DNA of 21,119 bases, from positions 1 to 21,119 of the IMG/VR virus record IMGVR_UViG_3300027743_000098. The stretch is one strand, 5' to 3'. The position numbers were made by a program, and so were the translations under genes. Source of the stretch: a virus. The notes under the pieces were generated by a model that worked only from the letters and a program-made list of their open reading frames with translations, did no database searches and was not told the DNA's origin. Each line of letters begins with the position of its first letter. The first letter of the stretch is position 1. Shown here piece after piece: positions 3,207-20,599 of the stretch.

Positions 3207-5515
3207 TGGCCGAAGACACCGATCGCGTCGACGACGACACCCGGCACGACGATCTCGAGTACAACCCCTCGATCGAGCCGAAGTCCGCGAAGGCGTGGAT
3301 CAACCTGCTCGAGGAGAGCGAGAAGGCGTTCGAGGACTGGAACGATCGCTGCGACAACATCGACAAGCGCTACGCCAACAACGAGCGGCTTGCCGGCATG
3401 AGCCGCGACCGCGAGTTCCAGATGTTCTGGGCCAACATGGAGGTGTTGAAACCTTCCGTTTACGCCAAGGCGCCGGTTCCGGTGGTGGTGCCGAAGTTCA
3501 AGGACCAGCGCCCGCTGCAACTGGCTGCCTCCGAGCTGATGGAGCGCTGCTGCGTGGTCTCGTTCGACATCGCGCGCATCAACGAGTTGATGCTGCTGGT
3601 GCGTGACGACGTCGTGCTCTACGGCCGCGGCGTTGCCTGGGTGCGCTACGAGGATGGCGACAAGGACAGCTACTACGAATACGAAAAGGTATGCGTCGAC
3701 CACAAGAACCGGCGCGACTTTCTGCACGGCCTGGCGCGCAATTGGCGCGAGGTGCCGTGGGTGGCGGCGGCGAGCTATTTGACGCGCGAGCAGGCGCGCG
3801 ATCGCTTTCGGAAGTATTCCGGCTACGCCTACCAGGAGGCCGAGTACAAGGTCGATCGCGAGGCCGAGCAGATCGGAGGCACCGACAATCGCGAGCGCGC
3901 CAAGTTCTGGGAGATCTGGCACAAGGAGACGCGCCGCGTGGTGTGGGTGGCGCAGGGCGTCGAGGACATCCTCGACGAGGACGAGCCGCACTTGCAGCTC
4001 GAGGGCTTCTTCCCCTGTCCCAAGCCGGCCTATGCGACGGTGCAGCCAGGCTCGCTGATCCCGGTGCCGGAGGTGCTGCAGTATCGCGACCAGCTCGACG
4101 AGGTGAACGACCTTACTGGGCGCATTCACGCGCTGTCGCAGGCACTCACCGCAAAAGGTTTTTACCCGGCGGGCGGCGGCGAGCTCGCCGAGGCGATCGA
4201 GACCGCAATCAAGATGAATACGCCCGGCGTGGTGATGGTCCCGATCAGCAACTGGGCGGCATTCGGCGGCTCGAAAGAGACCATCATCTGGCTGCCGATC
4301 GCCGAGATCGCCACCACCATCACTCAGCTGGTGACGATCCGAAAGCAGGTGATTGATGACATTTATCAAATCACGGGGCTATCCGACATCATGCGCGGCG
4401 CGACGGATGCGCGCGAGACGCTGGGTGCGCAGCAGCTCAAGACGCAATTCGGGTCGACGCGCATTCGCGACAAGCAACAAGAGCTTGTGCGCATCGCCAA
4501 GGATCTGGTCGGGATAACCAGCGAGATCATTACCGAAGTCTTCGACGAGGAGACCATGATCGCGATGAGCCAGACGCAATTGCCGACCAAGGCAATGCAG
4601 GAAAAGCAAATCCGCGACATCCAGCAGCAAATGCTGATGCAGCGCCAGCAGATCCAGCAGGCGTTGCAAAAAGCCCAGGCCATGCAGATCCCGCCTGAGA
4701 AAATCCAGCAGACCGAGCAGGAGGCGCAGCGCGCACTCGACGCCGGACAGAACGCGATTAATTCGATCGTCAACAAGCCGAACACCGAGCAGGTATTCCG
4801 GTTTCTCAAGGACAACCGCGCCAAGTCGTTCAGTCTCGACATCGAGACCGACTCGACCATCATGATTGACGAGAACGGCGAGAAGGAGCGCCGCGGCGAG
4901 TTCATCCAGGTGCTGACCCCGATGCTGCAGCAGATCGGCCAGATGGTTACCGCCACGCCGGAGAGCGCGGAGTTCTGTGGCGAGTTGCTCAAGTTCGCGA
5001 CGGCGCCGTTCCGCGCCGGGCGTTCGCTCACCGGCGCGATCGATCAGTTGATCGAGTTGATGAAGGCCGAGAACGGCAAGCAGAAGGGCGACGATCCGGT
5101 CACGGCGCAGAACAAGACCGCGCTGCAAATCGAACAGATGAAGGACGCGACCAACAAGGAGAAGAACGCGGCCGAAGCGCAGCTCAAGGCGCAGGAAATG
5201 CAAATGCGCGACCAGCACGAGAAGGCCAAGATCGCGAGCGCCGAGAAGATCAAACTGGCCGAGTTGCAGGCGCGCCAGCGCGACGACGCCGGCAAGGCGC
5301 AGCAGGCCAACCTGAAACTGGTGCATGACCGCGAGAGCCATCAACAGGACATGATCGCAGCCGCGGCCAAGCAGCAGCACGACGCGCAGCAGGCGAGCAT
5401 GAAGATGGCGGCGCTGCAGGCCAAGCAGGCGGCGGACAGTGCCCGCGCCAACGATCAGCGCGCGACGCAGCAACTTAAGGCGCAGCAGACGGCTGCGAAG
5501 GGCTTCCCGCCATGA
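3206..5515 (+). CDS. Portal protein with long helical C-terminal extension (769 aa)
   Basis: The portal forms the dodecameric DNA gate at one capsid vertex and docks the terminase and tail. The call rests on position directly after terL, a size in the range of the P22 portal, and a body with typical portal features: an aromatic/charged N-terminal region (WNDRCDNIDKRY), VLKPSVYAKAPVPVVVPKF near residue 90, and DQLDEVNDLTGRIHALSQAL near residue 300. A Gln/Ala/Lys-rich helical insertion spans about residues 460-520. A second and longer one, rich in KAQ, QQ and KMAALQAKQ repeats, fills roughly residues 625-769 and resembles the helical barrel of P22-type portals. The gene ends in an ATGA overlap with the next gene. 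Confidence 0.85.
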   Translation: MAEDTDRVDDDTRHDDLEYNPSIEPKSAKAWINLLEESEKAFEDWNDRCDNIDKRYANNERLAGMSRDREFQMFWANMEVLKPSVYAKAPVPVVVPKFKDQRPLQLAASELMERCCVVSFDIARINELMLLVRDDVVLYGRGVAWVRYEDGDKDSYYEYEKVCVDHKNRRDFLHGLARNWREVPWVAAASYLTREQARDRFRKYSGYAYQEAEYKVDREAEQIGGTDNRERAKFWEIWHKETRRVVWVAQGVEDILDEDEPHLQLEGFFPCPKPAYATVQPGSLIPVPEVLQYRDQLDEVNDLTGRIHALSQALTAKGFYPAGGGELAEAIETAIKMNTPGVVMVPISNWAAFGGSKETIIWLPIAEIATTITQLVTIRKQVIDDIYQITGLSDIMRGATDARETLGAQQLKTQFGSTRIRDKQQELVRIAKDLVGITSEIITEVFDEETMIAMSQTQLPTKAMQEKQIRDIQQQMLMQRQQIQQALQKAQAMQIPPEKIQQTEQEAQRALDAGQNAINSIVNKPNTEQVFRFLKDNRAKSFSLDIETDSTIMIDENGEKERRGEFIQVLTPMLQQIGQMVTATPESAEFCGELLKFATAPFRAGRSLTGAIDQLIELMKAENGKQKGDDPVTAQNKTALQIEQMKDATNKEKNAAEAQLKAQEMQMRDQHEKAKIASAEKIKLAELQARQRDDAGKAQQANLKLVHDRESHQQDMIAAAAKQQHDAQQASMKMAALQAKQAADSARANDQRATQQLKAQQTAAKGFPP

Positions 5516-5808
5516 TGAATAGCCGGGACGCAATTGCTGCTGTTCTGGCGCAGCGGCGCGGCGCGCCGCTTGAGCCGGGTATTCGCGCGACGCCTTGGTA
5601 TGCCGAGTACATGCAGAAGTATGGCGAGGCCCCGGATCTGAACACGCCAGACTACGACTACCGTGCCGCGTGGGCGGCAGGTGCGCGCCCGACCGTGCGC
5701 GATCCGGTCGATCAACTGTTGCATTGGCCGAGCCTGTTCAAAGGCCCGAACCACCCGAACCGCTTTGTTGACGGGATCGACACCATAACCGGCGAGAAGC
5801 GGCCATGA
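5512..5808 (+). CDS. Small conserved phage virion-region protein (98 aa)
   Basis: The start overlaps the portal stop as ATGATGA, so either the ATG at 5512 or 5515 could be used. The N-terminus carries RDAIAAVLAQRRGAPL, a short amphipathic helix echoed in three other proteins of this window. The second half reads TPDYDYRAAWAAG and later HWPSLFKGPNHPNRF, a YDYR...HWP...GPNHP pattern that I associate with small proteins of unknown function in phage structural modules. Function is unassigned; coupling to the portal gene suggests a virion or assembly role. Confidence 0.75.
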   Translation: MMNSRDAIAAVLAQRRGAPLEPGIRATPWYAEYMQKYGEAPDLNTPDYDYRAAWAAGARPTVRDPVDQLLHWPSLFKGPNHPNRFVDGIDTITGEKRP

Positions 5809-6095
5809 TGCAGAGCACCGATCGCGATATGCTGACCCACGCGCTGTTGCGGCAGCAACGGGGCCAGCCGCTCGGCTCGCCGTTCGCACCGGCGCCGGTG
5901 CCGCAACGGGCGCCGCTGGTGGCGGGTAATCCGACGCCACCGATCGCCGCGCCGATCCCGCAGTACGGCTTCGAGACGGGTTATCGTGCCGCTGCCGGAC
6001 CAGCGGCGGCCGGTACCGGCAAGGAAGACAGGCTCAAGCAGTTGCTGCAGATGGTAATGGGCGTGCCGGGTTCGGCCGGGAGCGGCGCGCCATGA
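5805..6095 (+). CDS. Pro/Ala-rich small phage protein (96 aa)
   Basis: It starts inside the stop of the preceding gene (ATGATG at 5805) and ends in an ATGA overlap with the 33-residue gene at 6092. The N-terminus has RDMLTHALLRQQRGQPL, matching the amphipathic motif of its neighbour. The middle is a Pro/Ala linker (FAPAPVPQRAPL, PPIAAPIPQYGF) and the end is a short helix DRLKQLLQMVMG. It is probably mostly disordered with helical ends. No family recognised. Confidence 0.7.
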   Translation: MMQSTDRDMLTHALLRQQRGQPLGSPFAPAPVPQRAPLVAGNPTPPIAAPIPQYGFETGYRAAAGPAAAGTGKEDRLKQLLQMVMGVPGSAGSGAP

Positions 6096-6193
6096 CCCCT
6101 GAGCAGCGCCAGTACGCGACCGGCGCAATCGTGATCATCGGTGTAATCGCGGTGCTGGCGATCATGTGGTTTACCTTCGGGGCGAACCGATGA
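6092..6193 (+). CDS. Single-TM microprotein (33 aa)
   Basis: The ATG at 6092 overlaps the previous TGA as ATGA, and the TGA at 6191-6193 overlaps the next ATG at 6190 in the same way. The product is a short polar N-terminus (MTPEQRQYAT), one uninterrupted hydrophobic segment (residues 11-30, GAIVIIGVIAVLAIMWFTFG) and a three-residue ANR end. Overlapping starts on both sides and a clean membrane helix argue for a real gene. It could be a membrane-active virion peptide, a holin-like protein or an accessory inner-membrane protein; the sequence does not decide. Confidence 0.6.
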   Translation: MTPEQRQYATGAIVIIGVIAVLAIMWFTFGANR

Positions 6194-6369
6194 GCCAGCG
6201 CAACACCAAGCCGCCGTGGCTAAAGAAGGGGTGGATAAAGCTCCTCGATGAGCAGGAGCAGAAGTTCGTCGCCTGGTTCAAGGGTGAATACGGGCGTGAG
6301 CCGAACTACCAGGATGTGGAGGAGCGCTGGGATGATTTCGAGCGGCAACTGAGTAAGGGCGACCGATGA
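6190..6369 (+). CDS. Small charged soluble protein (59 aa)
   Basis: The ATG at 6190 overlaps the upstream TGA, so it is preferred over the GTG at 6166, which would begin inside the 33-residue gene. The product is basic at its N-terminus (KPPWLKKGWIKLL) and then helical and acidic (DEQEQKFVAWFKGEYGREP, DVEERWDDFERQL). It lies between two genes for tiny membrane proteins and overlaps both, which suggests the three may act together. No family recognised. Confidence 0.65.
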   Translation: MSQRNTKPPWLKKGWIKLLDEQEQKFVAWFKGEYGREPNYQDVEERWDDFERQLSKGDR

Positions 6370-6458
6370 ACCAGCGCACCACAGTGCTCGTCCTGGTCGC
6401 GATCGCCGTCGGCGCCGCGATCGTCGCGCTGATGATGCAGCCGCAGGGGGCGCACTGA
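6366..6458 (+). CDS. Single-TM microprotein (30 aa)
   Basis: The ATG at 6366 overlaps the preceding stop as ATGA, and the TGA at 6456-6458 overlaps the next ATG as TGATG. After a four-residue polar start (MNQR), residues 5-24 form one hydrophobic helix (TTVLVLVAIAVGAAIVALMM), followed by a short PQGAH tail. It mirrors the 33-residue protein 170 bases upstream in size and layout but not in sequence. Function unknown. Confidence 0.55.
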   Translation: MNQRTTVLVLVAIAVGAAIVALMMQPQGAH

Positions 6459-7936
6459 TGGCCTTCGGTGACTTCGCCAAGCTCGACGGCTACGACCCAG
6501 ATGCAGGGTTCAAGGACACGTTCCGCGAGCGGTTCGGCGCGGCGCCGCTCGATCCGTTCGAGGCGGCGGCGTTGCGCCAGCGTCAGTTCCGCAACCGTCC
6601 ATCCGAGACGTCACAAGAGACGATCGACAAGGCGGCGGGCGTCATGTCGGACGTGCTGATCCCCAAGACGCCGTTGGATGTCGCCATCACTGCCGCGACG
6701 CTGCCGTTCGGCGGTCCGTTGACGCGGCCGGCGGTGCGGGCCGGTATGCTCGCACTCGGCGGCATCTTGAACCCGGATGCCGCTGAGGCGGGTAAACTCA
6801 ATTTGTTCAAGCACGGCATCTCGGCGGTGAAGCTACCGAAGCCGATCAACGAGTATTCGTCGGTGCACACGCCACGTGCCGAGATGGAAAACAAGGTGGT
6901 CAGTGCCGAGGCGCTGAAGGGCAAGCGGCTTTACCCGACGATCAGCGACACCACGGTGCCAAACACGTACCTGGAGCAGATCGAGAACTACAAGCTACCT
7001 GAGCGAGTGAAGATGAGTGGCGGCGGACGCTTTGCCGACGTGATCGAAAACAAGCCTGATGTCTGGATGTCGCAACCTGGACCGATGAAGGGACTGGCTA
7101 ATCGTGTCGACGAGATCAGCGCGCGCACAGGTAACGAGACACTGGTGGCGCCGACCGCGCTGTCCGGCACCGGCGGTGACTACTCGCATCATGTCTGGTC
7201 GCCGCTGGTCGACGTGTTCAAGAACACTAAAGGCATCAGCAAGGCGGCACGCAGCGACTTCGACGCGATCATGCGCGAGGCTGATCCAAACTTTCCCGGT
7301 GTGAATGCCAAACGCGACACGCTGCAAAACTACTTCCAGGCAGCGGCGCGCGGACCGCGTACGACGTTCTCGCAGGCCATGGACACACGCCGTTTCCAGG
7401 ATCTCGGCTTCCCGGATGTCGCCGCGGTGCGTCACGCCGCGACAGATCCTGAACTGCTGCACGCACCCATGGGATCGTCCGGCTACTCGATCTTCGGCGT
7501 CGACCCGAAGAGCGTGCGTCCTGTCGCCGGGCACGGCACCTACAGCCACGGCATCGCTGGTGAGAATGTTGGCAGTCTCGGCGTCATCGCGCCGCCCGAT
7601 ATCATGTTCCCGGACGTGATGGAGAGCCTACGGTTGATGTCGCAAGCCAGCGGCAAGCCGCTGCGCAAGTACACCGGGCGGCCTGATTATTACTTCGCGG
7701 GCCGCGTTCCTTCCGAACTGTTCGGCAAGCCGTTGGCGCAATCGCAATTGGTCGACGACAAGTGGCTGAACACGTTCGGCGACTATGCACGCCGTTACAA
7801 AAAGGTCGGCGGCGCAGCCGCGCTGGCCTCGGGCATGACGCTGGCTGAAATCGCTGCCGCGCAAGAACAGGACGAACCGTTGCGTATCACCGTGCGCCCA
7901 AAGCTGGGCGATCTAGCCGACCAGGCTAATTACTAA
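6458..7936 (+). CDS. Unassigned phage protein, possible internal virion protein (492 aa)
   Basis: The start is fixed by a TGATG overlap at 6458. I do not recognise the family. Residues 1-60 are charged and helical, residues about 73-104 are hydrophobic and Gly/Ala-rich (DVAITAATLPFGG, RAGMLALGGIL), and the body is mixed alpha/beta with conserved-looking stretches such as TALSGTGGDYSHHVWSPLVD and HGTYSHGIAGENVGSLGVI. Near the end a second Ala-rich stretch (GGAAALASGMTLAEIAAAQ) precedes an acidic tail. Hydrophobic patches at both ends of a soluble body are seen in some proteins ejected with phage DNA, so an internal virion role is possible. The gene is followed by a strong AAGGAG ribosome site for the next gene. 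Confidence 0.75.
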   Translation: MAFGDFAKLDGYDPDAGFKDTFRERFGAAPLDPFEAAALRQRQFRNRPSETSQETIDKAAGVMSDVLIPKTPLDVAITAATLPFGGPLTRPAVRAGMLALGGILNPDAAEAGKLNLFKHGISAVKLPKPINEYSSVHTPRAEMENKVVSAEALKGKRLYPTISDTTVPNTYLEQIENYKLPERVKMSGGGRFADVIENKPDVWMSQPGPMKGLANRVDEISARTGNETLVAPTALSGTGGDYSHHVWSPLVDVFKNTKGISKAARSDFDAIMREADPNFPGVNAKRDTLQNYFQAAARGPRTTFSQAMDTRRFQDLGFPDVAAVRHAATDPELLHAPMGSSGYSIFGVDPKSVRPVAGHGTYSHGIAGENVGSLGVIAPPDIMFPDVMESLRLMSQASGKPLRKYTGRPDYYFAGRVPSELFGKPLAQSQLVDDKWLNTFGDYARRYKKVGGAAALASGMTLAEIAAAQEQDEPLRITVRPKLGDLADQANY

Positions 7937-7951
7937 CCCAAGGAGACCACC

Positions 7952-8680
7952 ATGGCTCAAAGCGCACTAACCGTGACCCCGCCCAACCCGACGCCGCCCA
8001 CCAACATGGCGTGCACCGGCGCGACGCCGCCCAATCCGCCCAACTACACCAAGAACACCTACATCGACTACACGCCGGACACCGACTTCGACACCTATCC
8101 GCCGCCCTACTTCGATGACGGCGCGGCCGGGTCGCTCACCGCCTTCGCCACCAACACCGCGGCACTTGCCAGTGGCAGTGCGGCCACCGCAGGCGGCACC
8201 GAGAACAGCTACCCAGGCGCCGGCGGCGTGACGCCACCCAACGCGCACTTCAACGGCGCTGTGCCGGCGAGCACGTCCGTGGCGCACGAGGCGGCCGGCA
8301 CCGAGGTGGTGGTGACATCGCCAGGCTCTCTCGCGACCGCGCCGACCCAGCAGGTGAGCGTGTTCGGTGCCTATACGTCGACGCCGAATGCCAGCCACGC
8401 CTCGTACCTGTCGGCCGGCACCGCGCCAGTGATCACCGGCCTCTCGGCGGGCGGCGTGTCGGGGGTCGGCACCACGGCGCTGACGGTAACCGGCACGGGC
8501 TTTACCCGCGCCGCAACGGTCTATGTCGACGGCGTCAGGCAGAATACGAACTACGTGTCGGCGACATCGTTGACGGTCGCCGGGGCACCCAAGAAACTGA
8601 CCGCCGGCACCAGTGCCGTGACGGTCATCAATGGTGTCGGCGGCACTCCCAGCAACTCGTTCAACTGGACCTTCACATGA
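7952..8680 (+). CDS. IPT/TIG-domain surface protein (242 aa)
   Basis: A strong ribosome site (AAGGAGACCACC then ATG) opens the adhesion cassette. The N-terminal third is Pro/Thr-rich (NPTPPTNMACTG, PPNPPNYTKNTYIDY) and the middle Ala/Ser/Thr-rich. Residues about 160-242 form an immunoglobulin-like IPT/TIG fold: PVITGLS, TALTVTGTGF, ATVYVDGV and SATSLTVAG are the expected strand pattern, ending in NSFNWTF. Such domains decorate phage capsids and tails and bind weakly to host surfaces or mucus. Its TGA overlaps the next ATG as ATGA, and the next gene carries a second copy of the fold. A head-decoration or fibre role is inferred. Confidence 0.75.
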   Translation: MAQSALTVTPPNPTPPTNMACTGATPPNPPNYTKNTYIDYTPDTDFDTYPPPYFDDGAAGSLTAFATNTAALASGSAATAGGTENSYPGAGGVTPPNAHFNGAVPASTSVAHEAAGTEVVVTSPGSLATAPTQQVSVFGAYTSTPNASHASYLSAGTAPVITGLSAGGVSGVGTTALTVTGTGFTRAATVYVDGVRQNTNYVSATSLTVAGAPKKLTAGTSAVTVINGVGGTPSNSFNWTFT

Positions 8681-9711: not shown

Positions 9712-9739
9712 AGAAACGAGGCAGACGCCACCTCGAGCC

Positions 9740-9787
9740 GGGCATGGCCTTGGTGGTTGTGAGGCGCGTAACACGTAACTGATGCCC
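9740..9787. other. Structured part of the intergenic region (stem and direct repeats)
   Basis: GGGCAT at 9740-9745 pairs with ATGCCC at 9782-9787. Inside lie a smaller GCCT/AGGC stem (9747-9750 with 9762-9765) and two direct CGTAAC copies (9767-9772 and 9774-9779). An 8-base palindrome CCCTAGGG follows at 9785-9792. With the minihelix at 9848 this suggests that the 190-base gap is transcribed as structured RNA. No riboswitch class is recognised. Confidence 0.25.
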
Positions 9788-9847
9788 TAGGGACTGCCCC
9801 CGCTCGAACGGGAAACAGGCGTTCCGCGGCGCGCAACACCCTCGTCA

Positions 9848-9881
9848 GGGGAGCCGGTGGGTTCGAGTCCCGCTGCTCCCC
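9848..9881 (+). ncRNA. tRNA-like minihelix: acceptor stem plus T arm without D and anticodon arms
   Basis: GGGGAGC (9848-9854) pairs perfectly with GCTCCCC (9875-9881). Inside it GTGGG (9857-9861) pairs with CCCGC (9869-9873) through one T-G pair, closing a 7-base loop TTCGAGT that fits the T-loop consensus TTCRANY with the flanking G-C pair. G9856 can wobble with T9874, leaving only C9855 bulged, exactly where the D and anticodon arms would normally be inserted. No CCA follows (GCT) and no T-run, so it is neither a complete tRNA nor a standard terminator. It may be a decayed phage tRNA, an attachment-site copy of a host tRNA end, a true minihelix RNA, or chance. Confidence 0.3.
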
Positions 9882-9901
9882 GCTTATTCGGGAGAATGGG
9901 G

Positions 9902-11257
9902 ATGGGAATACCAGTCGTCATCAAAGCGTCGGGCGGGATGCCCGTGACCGTGGCGACCAGTGGCTACGGCACGCCGATGGAGGTGGCGACCAACGGCTAC
10001 GGCATTGCCATCACGCAGGTCGCCAGCGGTGGCCTGCCGGTTGTCGGCGTCACGTTCGGGCCAAGCATCGTGCTGAGCAACTACACCGTATTCGAGAATT
10101 CTGCCGTCAACACGGTCGTCGGCACGCTGAGCATGTCGGGCACCACCGGCACGCCGACCTACACGCTGACCGGCACGGCAGGCGGACGCTTCAAGATCGT
10201 TGGTAACTCGCTGCAGGTGGCGGCGGCGACCATCGACTACGAGACCGCGGCGACGCACGGCATCACGGTCAGCGTTAGCGGCGTCGCGCCCGCGGTCAGC
10301 GCGACCAACTTCACCATCGTGGTGCTCGATGTGACCGCGGCGGCGCCGGTCGCGCCGGTATTGCTGCTGACATCGGGGCCGACCGACAACACGCCCGACT
10401 TCACGCTGACCGGCGACCTGGCGCTGGGCGACACGGTGCGGCTGCAGTATGGCACGGCTTCAGACTTCACCGGCGCGTCCGCGGTGACCAACACCGTCGA
10501 CGCCGGGGAGGACGCCGCCAACACGCTCAGCCTCGTGACCGGCGCGCTGGCCGACGGCACGTGGTACTTCCGCGCCCGCACCGAGCGGCCCGACGCGCTG
10601 ACCAGCGACTGGTCAAACACCGAGAGCGTGACGCTCGCGGCCCCGAGCACGCCCGCGTGGGTGCTTACCGGCTTCGACATCGACATGGACTTCGTCAACA
10701 ACCGCTACTGGAACGGCACGGCCGTCGTCGCGCTCAGTACGCTGCTCACGACGAGCACGTCGCATTCGCTCAGCGCCAACGGCCTGTCGGTTACGCTGGC
10801 GGAAAATTACGCTTTCACGGGTGCCGCCCTGACGGTCCTCAACGCAATCGCGGCGGCAGCCGGTACGGGCTATGGCGAATTTAACACTGCCACAGGATCT
10901 GGCGGATACCTCGTTGATTTCGCCAGAACCGGCGATGGCAACCGGCCACTTTTCTATATTAATTCTCCGGGGCCACCCCCGCATATATCTTATTTTGATG
11001 GTGTCAACGCCCCCACAGGAGCTTCATTCACATTAGGTGCGAATACGAAGGTCGCGCTTGCGTGGAGCGGAAGCACGGCATCGGCATCGTTAAATGGCGG
11101 CGCTGCTCTTTCTAATTCGTGGAGCGGCAATTGGAATATAAGCGGACCATCGCTTGGCGAAGGGTCGTTTAATCAGCTTTGGCCTGGCTATATCCGGCGC
11201 ATTGCCTTCAAGACGACGCGGTTGTCGAACGCCGAGCTGGTGACAATTACAACATGA
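9902..11257 (+). CDS. Multidomain tail fibre or adhesin (451 aa)
   Basis: The ATG at 9902 has GGAG 7 bases upstream and gives MGIPVVIK. The frame extends to a GTG at 9857, but that lies inside the minihelix, and the ATG at 9896 is too close to the ribosome site. Residues 1-50 hold repeated hydrophobic strands (SGGMPVTV, NGYGIAIT, SGGLPVVGV). Residues 55-148 look cadherin-like (NYTVFENSAVNTVVGTL, TIDYETAATHGITVSVSG). Residues 151-246 look Fn3-like (GTWYFRARTE, TSDWSNTESVTL). Residues about 253-451 resemble a concanavalin A-like lectin fold ending IRRIAFKTTRLSNAEL. This is a modular receptor-binding architecture. Base composition becomes AT-richer from about 10880, within the lectin part. The stop overlaps the tailspike start as ATGA. 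Confidence 0.75.
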   Translation: MGIPVVIKASGGMPVTVATSGYGTPMEVATNGYGIAITQVASGGLPVVGVTFGPSIVLSNYTVFENSAVNTVVGTLSMSGTTGTPTYTLTGTAGGRFKIVGNSLQVAAATIDYETAATHGITVSVSGVAPAVSATNFTIVVLDVTAAAPVAPVLLLTSGPTDNTPDFTLTGDLALGDTVRLQYGTASDFTGASAVTNTVDAGEDAANTLSLVTGALADGTWYFRARTERPDALTSDWSNTESVTLAAPSTPAWVLTGFDIDMDFVNNRYWNGTAVVALSTLLTTSTSHSLSANGLSVTLAENYAFTGAALTVLNAIAAAAGTGYGEFNTATGSGGYLVDFARTGDGNRPLFYINSPGPPPHISYFDGVNAPTGASFTLGANTKVALAWSGSTASASLNGGAALSNSWSGNWNISGPSLGEGSFNQLWPGYIRRIAFKTTRLSNAELVTITT

Positions 11258-12849: not shown

Positions 12850-12852
12850 CCC

Positions 12853-13170: not shown

Positions 13171-13216
13171 CCGTATCGGCGGCGAATAGGGGTTCGCTGG
13201 TCGGGAGTTGCTACGT

Positions 13217-14494
13217 ATGTCTGACGTCACTGTTGCGCCCGCCGCCACCCCTGCGGCGTCGACGCCCGCGGCTGCGCCGACACCTGTTGCACCGCGAAAC
13301 GAAGTTCAAATCAACCAGAACCCGGTTGGAACACCGAACCCGGTCCCGCCGCAAGTGCCGCCCGCGGAGGACAAGCCGCGGCCGGAGACCCGCCGCGAGG
13401 GCATCCAGCGCGCCCTCAACAAGCACCGCACCGAGCACCCGGTGGCGCCACCGCGCGAGGCCAAGAAGGGCGACAACGCGCCGCCCGAGGACACCCCTGA
13501 CGATTTCACCTTGAAAAAGCGCCCCGGCGACCAGGCGGCGAAGATCGATCAGCCGCGCGAAAAGGGTCGCTTTGCGCCAAAAACTACGCCCGACGGGCAG
13601 GCCCAACCGAACGTCGGTGCGCAGGCGGGGCAGCCGACGGCCCGACCCGGCACGTCGGCTGCTCCGCAGCCCTATCGTCCGCCGCCGGGAGCCCCGGCGC
13701 ATCACCACCCGCTGCCGCGCATGTCACCAAGGGCCGCCGCCGCGTGGGACAAGGTGCCGGACGAGGTACGCGCCGACGCACACCGGATGTACCGCGAGGT
13801 CGACCAGGCGTTCCGCAAGTACAAGGGCGCCCACGACCTGGTGCAGACGATCGCGCCCTACGTGAAGATGGCGCACGAGCAGGGCACGTCACTCGACAAA
13901 GTGCTCGCCAACCACGTGGCGATCGAGGACAAGTTGCGCTCCGACCCAATCGGCGCCTTCGAGGTCATTACCCATAATCTCAATCTGCAGACCCCGGACG
14001 GGCAAAAGCTAGGCTTTCGGGATTTGTGCTGGCACGCGCTGAACCAGACCCCGGAGCAGCAGCAGTTGATCGCCCAGCGCAACGAGGCGCAGGCGACGCG
14101 CCTGCAGCTCGAGGCGATGCGGCGCGAGCAGCAGGCCCTTGTCAACGAGATGCGGCGGGCGCAGTATGTGCAGCACTTCCAGACGACCCGCGGCGCTGTT
14201 GATCAGTACGCTGACCAGCGACCCCGTTTCGATGAGCTGGGAGACTTGATCCATCGCGAGATCCAATTGGGTTTCTCGCTGGATGAAGCCTACCGCCGCG
14301 CAGAGTTGTTGCGGCCCGGCACGACAGCGGCTCAGACCCGCCAGACGACGCCGGCTCAGACCCGGACCCCCGACCGGAGTATTTCCGGCGCCCCCAGTGG
14401 TGGCCTCAACGGCGCCAATGGTGCGCGTACCGGCAAGCCGGTCTCCCGCAAAGACGCGCTCGAGCATGCCTTCCGGCATCACCGTAGCGTGTAG
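13217..14494 (+). CDS. Probable head scaffolding protein (425 aa)
   Basis: The ATG at 13217 follows GGGAG with 9-base spacing and is preferred over the TTG at 13208. The gene sits directly before the major capsid gene, the usual scaffold position. Residues 1-165 are Pro/Ala/Gln-rich and disordered (AAPTPVAPRNEVQ, ARPGTSAAPQPYRPP). Residues about 168-360 are helical (MSPRAAAAWDKVPDEVRADA, LQLEAMRREQQALVNEM), and the end is Gly/Thr/Arg-rich with a basic helix RKDALEHAFRHHRSV. A disordered region, a central helical rod and a basic C-terminal helix that can touch the coat protein is the standard scaffold layout. No protease is fused to it. Confidence 0.7.
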   Translation: MSDVTVAPAATPAASTPAAAPTPVAPRNEVQINQNPVGTPNPVPPQVPPAEDKPRPETRREGIQRALNKHRTEHPVAPPREAKKGDNAPPEDTPDDFTLKKRPGDQAAKIDQPREKGRFAPKTTPDGQAQPNVGAQAGQPTARPGTSAAPQPYRPPPGAPAHHHPLPRMSPRAAAAWDKVPDEVRADAHRMYREVDQAFRKYKGAHDLVQTIAPYVKMAHEQGTSLDKVLANHVAIEDKLRSDPIGAFEVITHNLNLQTPDGQKLGFRDLCWHALNQTPEQQQLIAQRNEAQATRLQLEAMRREQQALVNEMRRAQYVQHFQTTRGAVDQYADQRPRFDELGDLIHREIQLGFSLDEAYRRAELLRPGTTAAQTRQTTPAQTRTPDRSISGAPSGGLNGANGARTGKPVSRKDALEHAFRHHRSV

Positions 14495-14510
14495 GTCTGT
14501 AACCCCTGAC

Positions 14511-14522
14511 CCCCGAGTGGGG
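14511..14522 (+). promoter_or_regulatory. Short hairpin abutting the capsid-gene ribosome site
   Basis: CCCC (14511-14514) and GGGG (14519-14522) pair around a GAGT loop, and the right arm runs straight into the GGAGGAG ribosome site of the capsid gene. It might modulate initiation or protect the message. With only four base pairs the structure is weak evidence. Confidence 0.25.
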
Positions 14523-14530
14523 AGGAGCCG

Positions 14531-15568
14531 ATGCCCAACATTACAACCAATGCTGCCTATCAGCAGATCTTCAGCATGGCCGTCGAAGAGCGGTCATCGA
14601 GCTACCAGGACCTTGTCTCCAATAACAACGCGCTGCTCTCGGTGCTGCGACGGAAAGGGCTCTGGAAGACCTATTCGGGTCCGCGCATTCGCGAAACCTT
14701 GCAAGTCGGAAAACAAGTCGCGCAGTGGTACTCCGGTTACGATCAGCTGCTCAACCCGGCGATCGATTTGTTCAACGATGCCTACTACGACCCGAAGATG
14801 GTCGTGGTGCCGATCATCCTCAGCATGCAAGAAATCCTTAATAATCAAGGGGATAGCCAGCTGATGGACGTCATGGACAATTACATGGAGGCCGCCGAGA
14901 AATCGCTCGAGGACACCATGGACGCAGGGTTGTTTTCTGACGGAACTGCAAACGGAGGTAAGCAGATCACCGGCCTCGCCGCCGCGATCCCGATCACCAC
15001 CACGTCGGGCGTTTACGGCGGCCTTGACCGCGCCACCGCCACGATCTGGCGCACCTCGACTTACGATGCCTCCGGCGGCGCCGGCTCGATCTCGCTCTCG
15101 ACGATCGGCACCCAGATCACCTCGACCACCATTCGCCCGATGCTCAACAAGATCATGACCGACCGCTCGCGCGGCCGCGACTACGCCGACCTGTTGATCA
15201 TGAGCCCGGAACACTACGCCGCCTACGACGCGGCGACGATCGCGATCCAGCGCCAGACCAACGAAACCTCGATGGGGAAATTGGGGTTTAGCGCTTTGGA
15301 ATATATCGGTGGCGGCAAACGCGCCGAGATCGTGCTCGATGGCGGCATCGGCTCCAACATGCCGGCGAATACGACGTTCGGCATCAACACCGACAGTCTG
15401 CGTTTGAGGTACCACCCCAATCGCAATTTCGATCGCGTGTTCGATGGCGAGGGCCAAATGCCGATCGACAAGGACGCCATCGCCCAATTCATCGGCTGGA
15501 TGGGCGAACTGACCATGACCAATCCGCTGTTCAATTGGCGGTTGTACGACTCCAACCCAGCGGCATAA
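14531..15568 (+). CDS. Major capsid protein (345 aa)
   Basis: This is the coat subunit of the icosahedral head, probably of HK97 fold. Support: it directly follows the scaffold gene, has a strong GGAGGAG ribosome site and an ordinary length for this class. Its features are familiar from podovirus-type coats: an N-terminal helix (ITTNAAYQQIFSMAVEERSS), VVVPIILSMQEILNN, a GKQITGLAAAIP then GGLDRATATIWR segment, DYADLLIMSPEHYAAYDAA, and a C-terminal IGWMGELTMTNPLFNWRLY. I see no N-terminal processing domain. The gene is followed by a gap with two hairpins rather than the usual stop/start overlap, so capsid output may be tuned separately from its neighbours. Confidence 0.85.
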   Translation: MPNITTNAAYQQIFSMAVEERSSSYQDLVSNNNALLSVLRRKGLWKTYSGPRIRETLQVGKQVAQWYSGYDQLLNPAIDLFNDAYYDPKMVVVPIILSMQEILNNQGDSQLMDVMDNYMEAAEKSLEDTMDAGLFSDGTANGGKQITGLAAAIPITTTSGVYGGLDRATATIWRTSTYDASGGAGSISLSTIGTQITSTTIRPMLNKIMTDRSRGRDYADLLIMSPEHYAAYDAATIAIQRQTNETSMGKLGFSALEYIGGGKRAEIVLDGGIGSNMPANTTFGINTDSLRLRYHPNRNFDRVFDGEGQMPIDKDAIAQFIGWMGELTMTNPLFNWRLYDSNPAA

Positions 15569-15574
15569 CCGTTC

Positions 15575-15610
15575 CCCGGTGGGGGTTTTCGAACCCCTTC
15601 CTCCGCCGGG
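15575..15610 (+). terminator. Hairpin with UUCG tetraloop after the capsid gene
   Basis: GGGGTT (15582-15587) and AACCCC (15592-15597) enclose a TTCG loop, an especially stable tetraloop sequence. Outer arms CCCGG (15575-15579) and CCGGG (15606-15610) can close a larger stem. No T-run follows, so a strong intrinsic terminator is unlikely; an attenuator or a 3'-stabilising hairpin for the capsid message fits better. Confidence 0.4.
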
Positions 15611-15616
15611 ACATAC

Positions 15617-15656
15617 CTGCGGCCGTCGCACGCCCTCCTACACGCGACGGCCGCAG
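15617..15656. repeat. Perfect 13-bp inverted repeat in the capsid downstream gap
   Basis: CTGCGGCCGTCGC (15617-15629) and GCGACGGCCGCAG (15644-15656) are perfect inverted arms around a 14-base loop that contains CCCTCCTA. There is no T-run, so simple termination is not indicated. It may stabilise or process the message or form a protein site. The loop is complementary to Shine-Dalgarno-like GGAGG, a coincidence or a regulatory contact. Confidence 0.5.
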
Positions 15657-15682
15657 CCCTGCTAACCTCGGAGAAACGAACC

Positions 15683-16408
15683 ATGCCTTTGCGCGAGCCT
15701 GACGATGTTGCGGTGGTGCTGTTTCGGCATCAGTCTTTTAAAAACGAAGACAAGTCCCGGGCCGAGGGACGCGAGGTCCACGACGACGTCGAGATGTGCG
15801 AGATCCGCTTCCCCGGCGCCAAGGACTGGAAAGCCTTCCCCGCCACGGCGCTCTCGACCCAGAAAATCATCGATCCCTACTCGGGCGCGGAAAAACAAAT
15901 CACCTACGCCGAGCGCTTCCGGCACCAGTACCAGCAGTTTAAGGCGCAGGCCGCGCAGACCAAGAGCGGCACGCCGCTCGACTTTGCGCCGTTCCTCACC
16001 GAGGCGCGCCGCGCCGAGTTGCGCGCGCAGAACGTCTACACGATCGAGCAGCTCGCCGCGATTGACGGCCAGGAACTGAAGAACCTCGGCCCGGGCGGAC
16101 GCGAGTACAAGAATAATGCCGAGGAATACCTGGCCGAGAGCAAGGCCGGCGCACCGAACCTGCAAATGGCGGCCGAGCTCGAGGCGCTGCGCGCGCGCAA
16201 TGCGGTGCTCGAGGAGGACGCCAAGATCAAGGCCGAGCGCGCCGCGGAGCAGCCCAAACCGCCGGCCGAGGCGGACTACGACGACATGACGATCGAGCAG
16301 CTGCGCGAGTACATCACGGCGCACACCGGCATTCCGCCGACCGGCTCGCTCAGTCACAAGTCGCTTAAGCATCTGGCCCAGGGGATCGTTAAAACGAAGG
16401 CTGCCTGA
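15683..16408 (+). CDS. Post-capsid structural-region protein with HhH-like motif (241 aa)
   Basis: The ATG has GGAG 9 bases upstream. The N-terminal half includes VVLFRHQSFKNEDKSRAEG and EMCEIRFPGAKDWKAFPA, suggesting a beta-rich fold. Near residues 118-150, NVYTIEQLAAIDGQELKNLG and the following GGREYKNNAEEYL resemble a helix-hairpin-helix element, often used to bind DNA backbone or protein partners. A charged helix follows (AELEALRARNAVLEEDAKI). The C-terminus (MTIEQLREYITAHTG, SLSHKSLKHLAQ) looks like a small SAP/LEM-like helical domain. A neck or head-completion function is inferred from position. Its TGA overlaps the next ATG (TGATG). Confidence 0.75.
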   Translation: MPLREPDDVAVVLFRHQSFKNEDKSRAEGREVHDDVEMCEIRFPGAKDWKAFPATALSTQKIIDPYSGAEKQITYAERFRHQYQQFKAQAAQTKSGTPLDFAPFLTEARRAELRAQNVYTIEQLAAIDGQELKNLGPGGREYKNNAEEYLAESKAGAPNLQMAAELEALRARNAVLEEDAKIKAERAAEQPKPPAEADYDDMTIEQLREYITAHTGIPPTGSLSHKSLKHLAQGIVKTKAA

Positions 16409-17151
16409 TGAGCCTGCTCACGGTGGTGCGCGATGTCTGCGCGGTGGTTGGCGTCGCGGCGCCGAGCTCCGTCTTCGCGGCGCTCGGCTCGAACCGCACC
16501 ATGTTCGAGATGCTCGCCTGCGCTAACGAGATGGCGCAGCGCATTGCGGCCGACACGCGCGACTGGACCATGTTGCGGGTGTCCATGACGCTAATCGGCG
16601 ACGGCGTCACCACCGCGTTCAACCTGCCCGCCAACTACCGGCGCATGCTGCTGAACAGCAATGTCTGGCTCTCGACCAGCACCCAGCAGCCGATGCGCTT
16701 TTTCTCCGATACCGACGAGTGGGTGCAGCGCCGCGCCGCGGGCGAGAACGACGCCTGGGGCGAGTGGACCATGTACGGCGGCCAGATCCATATCTGGCCG
16801 GCGATGAGCGCCAGTACCACGGCGCGGTTCATCTACCTCGACCGGAACCCGATTGCGTTGACCAGTGGCGGCTATGGCGAAGAATTCATGGCCGACACCG
16901 ACGTGTTCCGGCTCGACCAGCGCCTGCTCAAGCTCGGCATGATTTACGACTGGAAAATGAAAAAGGGGAGCCCCTACGCCGAGGACATGGGCACTTACTC
17001 CGACGCGATCGCGACGGCGATGGGCCACGACAAGCCGTCGCCGATCATCATCGGCCAGCGCGGATCGTCCTACGCGAAAGTCGCAATACCGACCCAGACC
17101 ATCACGGTCCCAATAAATCCTTACGGACCTAATTGGGGCGGCCCTCCATGA
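16408..17151 (+). CDS. Head-tail connector candidate, P22 gp4-like (247 aa)
   Basis: The start overlaps the previous stop as TGATG. The protein begins with a helical region (TVVRDVCAVVGV, MFEMLACANEMAQRIAADTR) followed by DWTMLRVSMTLIGDGVTTAF and NLPANYRRML, then a beta region with WTMYGGQIHIWPAM. This resembles tail-accessory or connector proteins of P22-like and T7-like podoviruses that sit under the portal and receive the tail stabilisation protein. Size and position between capsid and gp10-like genes fit. Residue-level assignment to gp4 is not proven by eye. It ends in an ATGA overlap with the next gene. Confidence 0.65.
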   Translation: MSLLTVVRDVCAVVGVAAPSSVFAALGSNRTMFEMLACANEMAQRIAADTRDWTMLRVSMTLIGDGVTTAFNLPANYRRMLLNSNVWLSTSTQQPMRFFSDTDEWVQRRAAGENDAWGEWTMYGGQIHIWPAMSASTTARFIYLDRNPIALTSGGYGEEFMADTDVFRLDQRLLKLGMIYDWKMKKGSPYAEDMGTYSDAIATAMGHDKPSPIIIGQRGSSYAKVAIPTQTITVPINPYGPNWGGPP

Positions 17152-18860
17152 GTGCCTACGCCGCCTTCCGCCGCCAGCCGGTGCCGCAGCAGTACGCGCA
17201 GAGCCTGCGCTCGATCAATATTCCGGCCCCGACCCGCGGCATTATCCAGTCCGAGAACGACGCCTTCATGCAGCCCGGCGGCGCCAACGTGCAGACCAAC
17301 TGGGCCAGCACTATGAAGGGGCTCAAGCTGCGCGGCGGCTGCGTGCGCTGGTGCGAACTGCCCGAGACGACGCCGGTCATTTCCGCATTCGAATACAGCG
17401 ACGGCAACGTGCAGAAGATGTACGCCGCCAACGCTACTAAACTCTACGACGTCACCACCAATACGCCGTCGATGATCAAGGACGGCCAGGGCAGCGGCAA
17501 CTATTTCGCCGCGCAGATGAACAACAATGCCGGCGACAATTACATGATTGTCGGCAACGACGCCGGCGATTTTCTGCTGCGCACGCACGATGGCGAAACG
17601 TTTTTCCTGCTCAGTGGCGTTATCGCCGCGGCGGGGGACGGCATTGCCAACATCACTTACGACCCGGCCAAATTGCCGACCGGCGTTCCGCAGGGGACCG
17701 GCCTCACCTACGCCTGGAAATACCGCAACCGGCTCTACTTCATCCAGGAAAGCAGCATGAATGCCTGGTACTTGCCGCTCGATGCGGTGGGCGGCGTGCT
17801 GCAGCCGATCTATCTGGCCGGCGCCGCCACCAAGGGCGGCAAGCTCTTGTTCGGCGCATCGTGGTCGATCGATGCCGGCGACGGCATTGACGACAAGTGC
17901 GTGTTCGTGACCGACTTAGGCGAGCTGCTGATCTTTACTGGCTCGAACCCCGGCGACGCCGCCAACTGGCGCCAGGAAGGCCGCTACCAGATCGGCGCGC
18001 CGCTCGGGATGAACGCCCACATGCTGCTCGGCGGAGATCTCTTAATTGCCACGGTCGACGGCATCGTGCCGGTCAGCCAGGCGATCCAGAAGGACAGCGG
18101 CCAGCTCAGCCTGGCGCTGCTCACCCACAACATCAAGCCGCTTTGGCGCGACGAGGTTAATGACAAGCGCGATTGGCCATGGACCATGAAGCGCTGGGAC
18201 GAGTACGGCGGCATCTTTGTCGCCACGCCCGGCGGCATAACGCCGAGCACGAAACACTGCCTTGTCGCCAACAACGAGACCGGCGCGTGGTGCATCTACA
18301 CTTGGGACGTCACCTGTCTGATCCGCATGCGCGCGGACATGTTTTTCGGGACGCAAAATGGCCTGATCATGCAGGCCGACCGCACCGGCTACGACGACGG
18401 CCTGCCCTATACGGCCACCCTGGTCGGCGGCTGGGAGACGTTTCAGTCCGGCGCCGCGCGCGTGACGTGGCACCAGGCCCGCGCCGTGTTCATGTCGCGA
18501 TTTGCCGAGCCGTTCCAGCCGCAGCTATCCGCCACCGTCGACTACCTCATCACCATTCCGCCGCCCCCGCCGCCCGGGCTCGACCCCGGCGTGCTCGATG
18601 TCTGGGACGAGGGTGTGTGGGGTCCGCCGGGTTCGGGCAACATCGTGCCGGTGCCGCCTGCTGACTTTGCCGCTTATGCACAGTGGGATCAGCCCGCCGC
18701 GGGCAGGGCCCCGATCCGCAACACCATGTGGGTGTCGATCGGGATGAGTGGCTTTGCCCACGCGCCGATCGTGCAGGTACAGGTCGCCCAGCAGGCGCGG
18801 CCCGACGTCGAACTGATCGCCATCGCCACCACGCAGGAAACCGGCGGCGTCAACGTCTAG
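17148..18860 (+). CDS. DNA-stabilisation/tail protein candidate, P22 gp10-like (570 aa)
   Basis: The ATG at 17148 overlaps the preceding stop and is preferred over a TTG at 17133. After a short leader, SINIPAPTRGIIQSENDAFM opens a region of many short beta strands with aromatic turns (EYSDGNVQKMYAANATKLYD, KYRNRLYFIQESSMNAWYLP, GGIFVATPGG). This suggests a beta-propeller-like body as in P22 gp10, which closes the portal channel and links connector to spike or needle. At 570 residues it is longer than P22 gp10. Part of the excess is a Pro-rich loop (IPPPPPPGLDPG) near residue 470 and a VWDEGVWGPPG element. A ribosome site and 9 bases separate it from the next gene. Confidence 0.65.
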   Translation: MSAYAAFRRQPVPQQYAQSLRSINIPAPTRGIIQSENDAFMQPGGANVQTNWASTMKGLKLRGGCVRWCELPETTPVISAFEYSDGNVQKMYAANATKLYDVTTNTPSMIKDGQGSGNYFAAQMNNNAGDNYMIVGNDAGDFLLRTHDGETFFLLSGVIAAAGDGIANITYDPAKLPTGVPQGTGLTYAWKYRNRLYFIQESSMNAWYLPLDAVGGVLQPIYLAGAATKGGKLLFGASWSIDAGDGIDDKCVFVTDLGELLIFTGSNPGDAANWRQEGRYQIGAPLGMNAHMLLGGDLLIATVDGIVPVSQAIQKDSGQLSLALLTHNIKPLWRDEVNDKRDWPWTMKRWDEYGGIFVATPGGITPSTKHCLVANNETGAWCIYTWDVTCLIRMRADMFFGTQNGLIMQADRTGYDDGLPYTATLVGGWETFQSGAARVTWHQARAVFMSRFAEPFQPQLSATVDYLITIPPPPPPGLDPGVLDVWDEGVWGPPGSGNIVPVPPADFAAYAQWDQPAAGRAPIRNTMWVSIGMSGFAHAPIVQVQVAQQARPDVELIAIATTQETGGVNV

Positions 18861-18869
18861 GAGAGCGAG

Positions 18870-19856
18870 ATGGCACTTGACACCTACGAGGCACAGCGAC
18901 AGCGCGATCAGATCGCGCGCGTCCTGCTGGCGCAGGCACTGGGTCTTTCCGAAGATGCGCTAAACGAGAGTAGCGCTCCGGGCGGCGCGAGCTTCCCCGC
19001 CCCCGACACCAACTGGACCGACCCGTCCGATCCGGCCGATTACAGCGCCACCGAGGCCGCGAATGTCAGCGACTCGACGAGTGCCGCAGCGGCGATCAAT
19101 GCGGCGAACAATGCCGCCGCGGGTCGTGACACCAGCAGCGCGCCGGCTAGTTCTGGCTATACATCAGGGGCGCTTGCCGCCCAGACCGGCATCACCGACC
19201 CGACCGGCTATTCGCCGGCCTCGACGTCGAACCCGACAACGACGGTGTCGTTCTCGCCGGATCCGGGTTACGACATTGCCGGCCCTGTCACCGGCCCGCT
19301 CGCCAACAGCAACATCGACGCGGCCACGGCGAATGTCGGGCCGATTGCGGGCGGTCTGTGGGGCGGCCCACTGGCTGGCTTCATGGCAGGCAACGTGACC
19401 CCCGGGTGGGGTGATATTGTTGGTGATCCCAACAGCGGCAACGTGATGGCAGGGTACGATGTGACTGGCCCAGGCTGGGGCACGCCTTCGCCTTCGACGG
19501 ATGTCACCGGGCCTGCCGTCACCGGGCCTGCCGTCACCGGACCTGCTGTGACGGGCCCCGGCTACGGCACGCCGGCGACCGGCACACCGGCCACCACCGG
19601 CAACGTTGCGACCGACGTCGGCGTCGGCATCGGGCTGGGCATTTCCGGCGGCTTCGGCGGCGCGACCGCCGACGGCACGTCTGGCGGCATGGGCGCAGAC
19701 GTTGGCGGTCCCGGCGTCGGGGGCTCGAGCACCGGCATTTCGGGCGGGCCGGGCGGCACCGGCGAGGGCGGCGCCAACACTGGCGAGGGCGGTACCGGCG
19801 TCTCGGGTGGCTTTGGTGGTGGCAGCGATGGCGCCGGCGGAGACGGCGGCAAATGA
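18870..19856 (+). CDS. Low-complexity Gly/Thr/Pro-rich virion-region protein (328 aa)
   Basis: A GGAGAGCGAG ribosome site precedes the ATG. Residues 1-30 form a helix (QRDQIARVLLAQALGL), followed by WTDPSDPADYSATEA. The rest is low complexity: Ala/Thr/Ser-rich, then a run of VTGPA repeats near residues 211-231, then a Gly-rich C-terminus ending GDGGK. The next gene has the same helix, DPSDPA element and GDGGK end, so the two are paralogues. The protein is expected to be largely disordered. The role is unknown; the context suggests an internal or tail-associated virion protein. Confidence 0.75.
   Translation: MALDTYEAQRQRDQIARVLLAQALGLSEDALNESSAPGGASFPAPDTNWTDPSDPADYSATEAANVSDSTSAAAAINAANNAAAGRDTSSAPASSGYTSGALAAQTGITDPTGYSPASTSNPTTTVSFSPDPGYDIAGPVTGPLANSNIDAATANVGPIAGGLWGGPLAGFMAGNVTPGWGDIVGDPNSGNVMAGYDVTGPGWGTPSPSTDVTGPAVTGPAVTGPAVTGPGYGTPATGTPATTGNVATDVGVGIGLGISGGFGGATADGTSGGMGADVGGPGVGGSSTGISGGPGGTGEGGANTGEGGTGVSGGFGGGSDGAGGDGGK
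19503..19562 (+). repeat. Tandem 15-bp repeats coding VTGPA
   Basis: Four in-frame 15-base units occupy 19503-19562. The first two are identical (GTCACCGGGCCTGCC), the third has two changes and the fourth is degenerate, giving VTGPA three times and then VTGPG. Related DVTGP and GPVTGP strings occur nearby in the same protein. Identical units suggest recent slippage or duplication; in-frame unit length preserves the product. Confidence 0.8.
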
Positions 19857-20599
19857 CGTTCCCGGGCTCAGCCAACTTCGGCGGCATGTCCGAGGCGCAG
19901 CGCAACGCCATCGTGCAGGCGTTGCTGGCGCAGGCGCAGGGCGGCGCGCCTGCTGCGCCCGCGTTCGCACAAAGCAGTCCGTTTGTTCAGCCGATGGACA
20001 TCGTCGACCCATCCGATCCGGCCTCATACGACAGTTCCATAACCGAGGCTGTCAATGACTTCGGACTACCGACCACGCAGCTCAACCCCGGCGACCTGAT
20101 CGATCCTGGCGACCTTATGTCACCACCAAGCACGCTAGAGGCGCCCGCGCCGCAGCAGCAAATGGAGGGGCTACCCGAGCCCGATCCTGGTGATCCTGAC
20201 AATATCGGAACGCTGGAGGCGCCGAGCCCATCGCAGCAAGTCGTGGATGCACTCGAGACACAGTCTGATCTCGCCGATCAAGCCGCCAACACCGCCCCCT
20301 CCGTGAACGACACTTTCGGCGGCCTGGCGATCGCCAACGACATCACGGGATCGCTCGCCGACATGAACGCGGCCGTGAATGACGCAATGGCGGGCTACAC
20401 CAGTGACCCGGGTGGCTTCGGTGGGGCTCCCGGCGGCTTTGGTACCGGCACCGGGTTCTCGTCTGCCGATGCCGCCAACGCCGCGGTCGGTGCGGCGCTT
20501 GGCGCCGCGATTGATGCGGCCAGCGACAGCAGCGGCGAGGCCGGAACCGGCGAAGGCGGCGGGAGTAGCGGCGGCGGCGGGGGAGACGGCGGCAAATGA
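19853..20599 (+). CDS. Low-complexity virion-region protein, paralogue of the preceding gene (248 aa)
   Basis: The start overlaps the previous stop as ATGA. The N-terminal helix EAQRNAIVQALLAQAQG, the DPSDPASYDSSITEA element and the Gly-rich end GGGGGDGGK all match the preceding protein, while the middle is Pro/Asp/Gln-rich (PGDLIDPGDLMSPPS, TLEAPAPQQQM and a second TLEAPSPSQQ). The last 19 bases across stop and next start (GGAGACGGCGGCAAATGAC) are identical in both genes, supporting tandem duplication. Function unknown. Confidence 0.75.
   Translation: MTFPGSANFGGMSEAQRNAIVQALLAQAQGGAPAAPAFAQSSPFVQPMDIVDPSDPASYDSSITEAVNDFGLPTTQLNPGDLIDPGDLMSPPSTLEAPAPQQQMEGLPEPDPGDPDNIGTLEAPSPSQQVVDALETQSDLADQAANTAPSVNDTFGGLAIANDITGSLADMNAAVNDAMAGYTSDPGGFGGAPGGFGTGTGFSSADAANAAVGAALGAAIDAASDSSGEAGTGEGGGSSGGGGGDGGK

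Follow-up and report, generated by a model that had tools for sequence, protein, structure and literature searches.

A short peptide with the consensus R-[DN]-x-I-A-x-A-[LM]-[LM], referred to here as the tag, recurs near the termini and in the linkers of diverse proteins encoded in the head and ejection module of a group of podoviruses. It is carried by four proteins of one uncultured IMG/VR virus record (IMGVR_UViG_3300027743_000098), whose 21,119 bases are called the window below. The tag is far more frequent than protein composition predicts, it is concentrated in the head/ejection module, and it precedes domains that elsewhere have other N-termini. We hold with moderate confidence that it is a docking or encapsidation helix that loads head-internal proteins in this podovirus group; docking by a helix, packaging and ejection are what we infer from the pattern. 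To our knowledge, how phages select the proteins that they pack into the head and inject is understood in depth mainly in T4 and a small number of other phages. If our reading is true, a recognizable tag makes injected proteins predictable from sequence in uncultured podoviruses, and selective protein packaging into such capsids becomes directly testable.

Recurrence of the tag in the window and in related loci

The original prediction pointed to an N-terminal helix motif shared by four small proteins, encoded from positions 5512, 5805, 18870 and 19853 (Table 1). All four open reading frames and the quoted peptides exist. A nine-column profile was trained on one gene only of related viruses, which encodes a Pro-rich protein just before ejA, usually 3' of the GNAT gene (17 distinct motifs from 22 proteins). 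This gene is absent from the window span, so the window test is not circular. The first 40 residues of the 22 called plus-strand proteins were compared with 4000 composition-preserving shuffles. Exactly the four proteins fell at p<0.01 (binomial tail 6e-5), the next lowest value being 0.07, and the shared motif is thus beyond chance. The tag of 19853 scored highest (23.3, p 0.0002), followed by 5805 (14.5, p 0.0010) and 18870 (14.4, p 0.0002); that of 5512 is the weakest of the four (11.5, p 0.0012, or 0.0020 across the whole protein). The pattern as first worded, R[DN]-x-hydrophobic-x3-LL-x-Q-x2-G, fits 5805, 18870 and 19853; 5512 fits its first eight residues and is one residue short before the Q. 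At 328 and 248 residues, 18870 and 19853 are not small. Gene calls were heuristic (longest start plus codon-position GC score); the called list leaves out the small terminase (1588–1839) and 9857–11257 and includes a doubtful frame at 10872–11036.

A recent DNA repeat is ruled out as the origin of the four tags, because their nine-codon cores are identical at just 11–17 of 27 positions. The proteins had been described as differing over most of their length. The BLASTP alignment of 5512 and 5805 is limited to the tag. Because 18870 and 19853 have in common a second element, DPSDPA.Y (BLASTP E 0.006), and a Gly-rich end, ...GGDGGK, they are probably tandem paralogues that have diverged. A single small ancestor, which had also been suggested, probably applies to this pair and not to 5512, whose domain has a different N-terminus elsewhere. 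Used as search queries, 18870 found no relatives and 5512 found five loci, aligned only from residue 16 or later.

Recurrence was assessed in the best 80 of 506 loci by major capsid protein (MCP) and four more by 5512 (84 loci, clade 1), plus the window. At a score of at least 11, the profile matched 52 of 757 unique plus-strand proteins in 23 BLAST families outside the training families, four proteins and four families being the window's own. The uncleaned count was 58 of 1193; it took in both strands, loci that were redundant, four loci from named phages and two copies of the training family (L008, L068). The 500 column-permuted profiles averaged 5.6 proteins and 2.6 families, with maxima of 55 proteins and 11 families; one of them reached 52 proteins and none reached 23 families. 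Composition and helix-forming tendency do not explain the recurrence, because the permuted profiles fall far short. The scan of genome and relatives that had been proposed as a check thus found the motif far more common than composition predicts. Outside ejB, scaffold and ejC, 30 of 32 matches lie within the first 80 residues (15.2 expected).

Enrichment by module was measured in 12 phage records of 41–45 kb, each used over its full length (their completeness is not stated), with 11 training-type proteins excluded. The head/ejection module held 22 tagged proteins among 306, against 1.73 expected by shuffling. Outside it, 3 of 430 proteins were tagged (1.2 expected), and one of these three (G012 4712–6841) is an ejB just beyond the drawn module border. 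Conservation, on which the original prediction hinged, is seen in two further MCP clades, with 46 of 1176 proteins (6.4 expected) and 24 of 1098 (5.2 expected) tagged, and in a probable orthologue of 5805 (L017 367–666, RDDIAQQLVMRQ). The ejB and ejC places hold 25 of the 46 and 13 of the 24 matches, and assigned scaffold proteins two and none. The ejB of L012, used as a query, recovered only its own contig.

Placement of the tag and exchange of domains

In the small proteins, the tag lies near the N-terminus, and the sequence behind it is mostly of low complexity and rich in Pro, Gln or Gly. Of 20 rows of ejB, a predicted ejected transglycosylase (two rows are identical), 17 show the tag at the N-terminus and 18 show it again further along, at a score of at least 5. 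An AlphaFold2 model of one ejB (mean pLDDT 65) has the first copy within a helix (residues 17–32). A globular domain, modelled with confidence, extends from 154 to about 300; a disordered linker (about 321–575) comes next, and the C-terminal part is helical. Inside the linker, the second copy (472–480) overlaps a low-confidence predicted helix (468–478). The best Foldseek matches of the model are lytic transglycosylases, weakly (top match phiKZ gp144, E 5.5e-3, probability 1.00, TM-score by target 0.42), and a clade-2 protein (L145) matches the phrog_4067 transglycosylase (E 2.8e-18). In ejC, also predicted to be an ejection protein, 5 of 12 records have a copy close to the C-terminus that scores at least 11.

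The tag also precedes a candidate effector domain. The ART-PolyVal protein of L052 begins MSWRDAIARTIT; this gene (4331–5257) matches PF18760 above the Pfam cut-off (34.1 versus 31.2 bits), and L022 392–1618 falls under the cut-off at 28.2 bits, these being the two of six ART-like family members that were scanned. In the f16 family, the tag mostly comes after about 60 residues that include another conserved element. An N-terminal element of approximately G[AS][LM]GG[LM]FAPA is conserved about 50 residues ahead of the tag in f16 (L029, L030, L032, L045, L064, L065, L082), and the f16 gene lies between the genes for the stabilization protein and GNAT.

The arrangements of two domains vary, such that one tag precedes different domains and one domain has different N-termini. 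The 5512 domain (GIRATPW...HPNRFVDGIDT) stands behind the tag in the window, behind IGDLARSDDY in L039 and behind MGKLADLGSY in L029. The alignment of window and L039 DNA spans this domain and excludes the first ~20 codons. The ART-like domain follows the tag in L052 and L069, follows weaker tag forms in L012 and L022, and has a different N-terminus in L046 and L058. The 5512 domain (window 5578–5805) is a mobile module, found alone in small proteins (window, L086) and within larger proteins in L039, L029 and L088.

A second motif, [MIFL]G[DA][LF]AxxDxY, was trained on the N-termini of the family of window gene 6458. At a threshold of 18, it matched 8 of 749 proteins in three families outside the 6458 family (permuted mean 0.05, maximum 3; 0 of 300 reached 8), and all six members of the ART-like family f21 have it, five at the C-terminus. 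At thresholds of 8–12 there was no excess over permuted profiles; the excess is found only at 16 and above. In 16 of 31 listed rows of the 6458 family, some of them identical and the window protein among them, the motif is present at both ends, and the C-terminal copies lie outside the training set.

The tag, or a stretch resembling it, is also found at or near the C-terminus of proteins encoded beside the scaffold gene. Members of family f22 (54–73 residues; L013, L014, L016, L018, L069), encoded just 5' of scaffold, have it at the extreme C-terminus (e.g., RDKIARAMLVRQR); a sixth member (L033) is without it. In clade 2, a protein of 111–140 residues, encoded mostly just 5' of the scaffold gene, contains RDDIRAAMA or a similar tag-like sequence, which lies some 25 residues before the C-terminal end (L138, L162, L168, L186, L188, L189, L191, L193). 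Several of the clade-2 matches outside the ejB/ejC, portal and scaffold genes fall in the C-termini of a small protein whose gene directly precedes scaffold.

Scaffold resemblance and known packaging systems

Scaffold proteins have weaker look-alikes of the tag towards both ends. Those of the window's scaffold are given in Table 1; taken alone, this protein is not significant (best profile score 6.6, whole-protein p 0.065). A loose pattern, [RK][DEAK][ASTN][ILV]xxA, fits 44 of 50 distinct clade-1 scaffold ends (e.g., RRDAIANAIKRVNG), and a RExIxxAF-type copy lies within residues 31–110 in 35 of 46 complete clade-1 scaffolds. One 63-residue protein grouped in the scaffold family (L014 8213–8404) is not a scaffold and is below the length cut of the scaffold-end count. 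In a profile ranking of 3655 aligned windows from 17 clade-1 families, f16 came first, the ejB linker second, the ejB N-terminus third and the ART-like family fourth; the scaffold C-end ranked 6th, an ejA window 7th and the scaffold N copy 8th. With a profile built from clade 3's own ejB N-termini, the scaffold copies ranked 12th and 17th of 4941 windows. An AlphaFold2 prediction of a scaffold-end/MCP read-through was uninformative on docking (mean pLDDT 52). The scaffold resemblance draws attention because one scaffold end contacts coat, directly or via an N-arm, in P22, 80alpha, phi29, HK97 and D3 (PMC12749128 and PMC12005531, both in part).

In P22, the C-terminal hook of the scaffold binds coat, and scaffold may be needed to bring in gp16 and gp20; the proposal for P22 is that the ejection proteins attach to the scaffold column, and not that they mimic the scaffold end as suggested here (PMC12005531, in part). 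The best match of our profile in P22 gp8 lies in the C-terminal region and was not counted, as it scored only 1.2.

In T4, a short peptide, the capsid targeting sequence (CTS), is present on the diverged small internal head proteins IPI, IPII, IPIII and relatives and directs proteins fused to it into the head; related phages show little conservation of the internal proteins, and CTS-like sequences recur (PMC9026906, in part). Here too, a short terminal peptide is found on several diverged proteins, and these would be located inside the head. The packaged cargo of T4 includes the ADP-ribosyltransferase Alt, and an ART-like protein is tagged here. The CTS is described there as N-terminal and cleaved by the prohead protease gp21, whereas the present tag also occurs in linkers and near C-termini. 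None of the three N-termini of T4 ipI, ipII and ipIII matched the profile (best scores −0.6, −5.4 and −5.4; p 0.09–0.44), and PHROGs named no prohead protease among 19 window proteins of this partial contig. The tag would work like the CTS. It does not belong to the T4 CTS family, because the T4 peptides are unmatched, the placement extends to linkers and the vicinity of C-termini and no prohead protease was recognized. What is new here would be a variant of a short head-targeting peptide; the tag itself is spread more widely than the original prediction saw.

Iyer et al. take T4 Alt as the prototype of polyvalent proteins, for which they infer packaging (PMC5512222, in part). In that work, as here, an ART-PolyVal domain is encoded among virion genes, and it is predicted to be packaged and injected. 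Those proteins are multidomain, whereas here a short exchangeable tag links mostly small proteins to the module; the passages of PMC5512222 on polyvalent proteins describe no such tag.

The published lineage of phiGT1 includes Mx8 (Mx8/Pr-lineage podoviruses), and its module order of portal, scaffold, MCP, tubeA, tubeB, GNAT and internal virion proteins is the one seen here (PMC10386132, in part). There, the gene at the GNAT place carries the annotation head assembly protein and is compared with P22 gp14/T7 IVPA, the genes 3' of it are called structural, and those at the ejB/ejC places are called putative internal virion or injection proteins. An ejB-like N-terminus (KREALAAMM) is visible by eye in phiGT1_18, with a profile score of about zero. 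None of ten phiGT1 proteins scored with the profile reached 7, and the word 'motif' is absent from the main text of PMC10386132. Ends resembling the tag can be made out by eye in three Mx8 proteins (the scaffold-position protein, p46 and p57); with the profile, p46 scored only 7.3 and the other two gave no strong score. No description of a tag of this kind was found in the open-licence PMC literature, as judged mostly from listings.

Proposed role and competing explanations

A docking or virion-targeting helix, as originally suggested, is the best-supported reading: the tag is recurrent, terminal or in linkers, enriched in the head/ejection module, present on predicted ejection proteins and, more weakly, on scaffold. 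A short amphipathic-helix docking tag would bring proteins into the assembling head. The tagged set would comprise ejB, ejC and changing accessory proteins whose genes lie 3' of those for portal, tail hub and GNAT; some of these accessory proteins probably act as effectors and are injected alongside the DNA. Its place near a terminus or within a linker would let the tag bind one repeated site inside the procapsid. Because the scaffold has weaker look-alikes towards both ends, the likeliest docking site would be one that scaffold also uses, on the inner capsid face or the scaffold core.

Several observations weigh against this reading. Many of the 23 families occupy a single gene slot and could be homologues that have diverged; 23 is thus an upper bound on the number of independent cases, and fewer origins may be involved. 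Among the 70 matches in the two other clades, 23 fall in other genes and seven (4 + 3) in the interior of the portal protein, most of the latter without an R-[DN] start; the window's portal has no tag at its ends and its best match is internal (9.9 at residue 480, p 0.039). The modelled ejB linker contains two further isolated helices that are not tags. The P22 ejection proteins gp7, gp16 and gp20 show no convincing tag by profile (a 9.8 match at residue 220 of gp16, GNAFTRSLM, is without the R-D start and was not counted), so the device is not general to podoviruses. In the clade-1 ranking, the MCP window KDAIAQFIG is 5th, slightly above the scaffold C-end; in clade 2, with its own ejB N-terminus profile, no scaffold window is in the top 18 of 3817; and scaffold and cargo tags do not covary within clade 1 (p 0.17–0.98, n 14–17; lowest of ten pairings 0.05). 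The link of the tag to scaffold is suggestive only, because MCP and ejA windows rank alike, clade 2 is negative and covariation is absent. The MCP segment itself (residues 314–322, window 15470–15496) is conserved; its resemblance to the tag, as close as that of the scaffold end, may be chance or may mark an MCP helix that the tag imitates.

A bolder version of the docking proposal, which we offer tentatively, is that proteins of these podoviruses are addressed by a peptide code. It would consist of two interchangeable tags, RDAIAxALM and, at the ends of portal-proximal proteins, MGxLAxQDxY, and would load into the procapsid a set of injected effectors that turns over. The first tag would copy the capsid-binding end of scaffold and so amount to a natural form of cargo loading by scaffold fusion, which is an established engineering method, with release not requiring a prohead protease.

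Alternatively, the tag could be a contact used in ejectosome assembly, with tagged proteins binding each other or the portal barrel and the scaffold resemblance being coincidental. We consider this rather unlikely, although it would account for the 38 of 70 matches in the two other clades that are ejB or ejC genes, for the tag on nearly every ejB row, and for a scaffold match that is weak and without covariation. It does not anticipate scaffold copies at ranks 6 and 8 in clade 1 and 12 and 17 in clade 3, and there is no need for accessory proteins of such variety, ART-PolyVal among them, to be part of an ejection tube. P22 ejection proteins, moreover, enter procapsids even without portal (PMC12005531, in part).

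Common descent, in which duplication and erosion of a single tagged gene (e.g., of the ejB N-terminus) would have produced the small proteins, with the peptide kept by inheritance, is improbable as the full explanation. The second element and tail found in both 18870 and 19853 fit it, as do small open reading frames with an ejB-like N-terminus directly 5' of ejB in L036 and L137. However, persistence of the tag while all else diverges would itself require selection on the tag. The tag also occurs in linkers, near C-termini and ahead of domains found elsewhere with other N-termini, and 5512 and the ART-like family share nothing by sequence.

The ejection proteins of P22 and T7 act in the envelope, and the tag, which is short and amphipathic as read from its sequence and not by calculation, could be a membrane- or envelope-active helix for DNA entry. 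This is very unlikely; copies in scaffold and in linkers have no such obvious use, and the permutation test shows that column order matters. Chance similarity of generic Ala/Leu/Gln-rich helices, the refutation foreseen in the original prediction, is the least probable explanation: the proteins are Ala-rich and a few permuted profiles match many proteins in few families (one matched 55 proteins in five families), but the permutation, window and module controls described above refute it.

The window's genes run from small and large terminase through portal, accessory genes, scaffold, MCP, tail connector, stabilization protein and two accessory genes to GNAT, scaffold and GNAT being assigned from position and relatives. 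The tagged Pro-rich and ejection genes, which lie 3' of GNAT in relatives, would fall past the contig end.

Table 1. Features of the window discussed in the text
Feature	Position	Strand	Details
Portal protein	3206..5515	+	phrog_12082, E 6.8e-176; candidate receptor
98-residue protein 3' of portal gene (5512)	5512..5808	+	Tag RDAIAAVLAQRRG at 5524-5562, then GIRATPW...YDYRAAW...HPNRFVDGIDT domain
96-residue protein (5805)	5805..6095	+	Tag RDMLTHALLRQQRG at 5823-5864; middle Pro/Ala-rich
Gene 6458, 492 residues	6458-7936		Second motif FGDFAKLDGY at residue 3 (6464-6493) and LGDLADQANY at residue 483 (7904-7933)
Scaffold-position protein	13208..14494	+	Tag-like N copy REGIQRALN at 13394-13420; extreme C-terminal copy KDALEHAFR at 14450-14476
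MCP	14531..15568	+	phrog_9953, E 3.3e-81; candidate receptor
328-residue protein between stabilization-protein gene and GNAT (18870)	18870..19856	+	Tag RDQIARVLLAQALG at 18903-18944; Gly-rich low-complexity tail
248-residue protein (19853)	19853..20599	+	Tag RNAIVQALLAQAQG at 19901-19942
GNAT-like gene	20596..21069	+	

The window's portal protein matches ten named phage records, including Rhizobium phage RHph_I3_18, Microcystis phage Mwe-JY13, Bradyrhizobium phage ppBjS10J-1 and Myxococcus phage Mx8.

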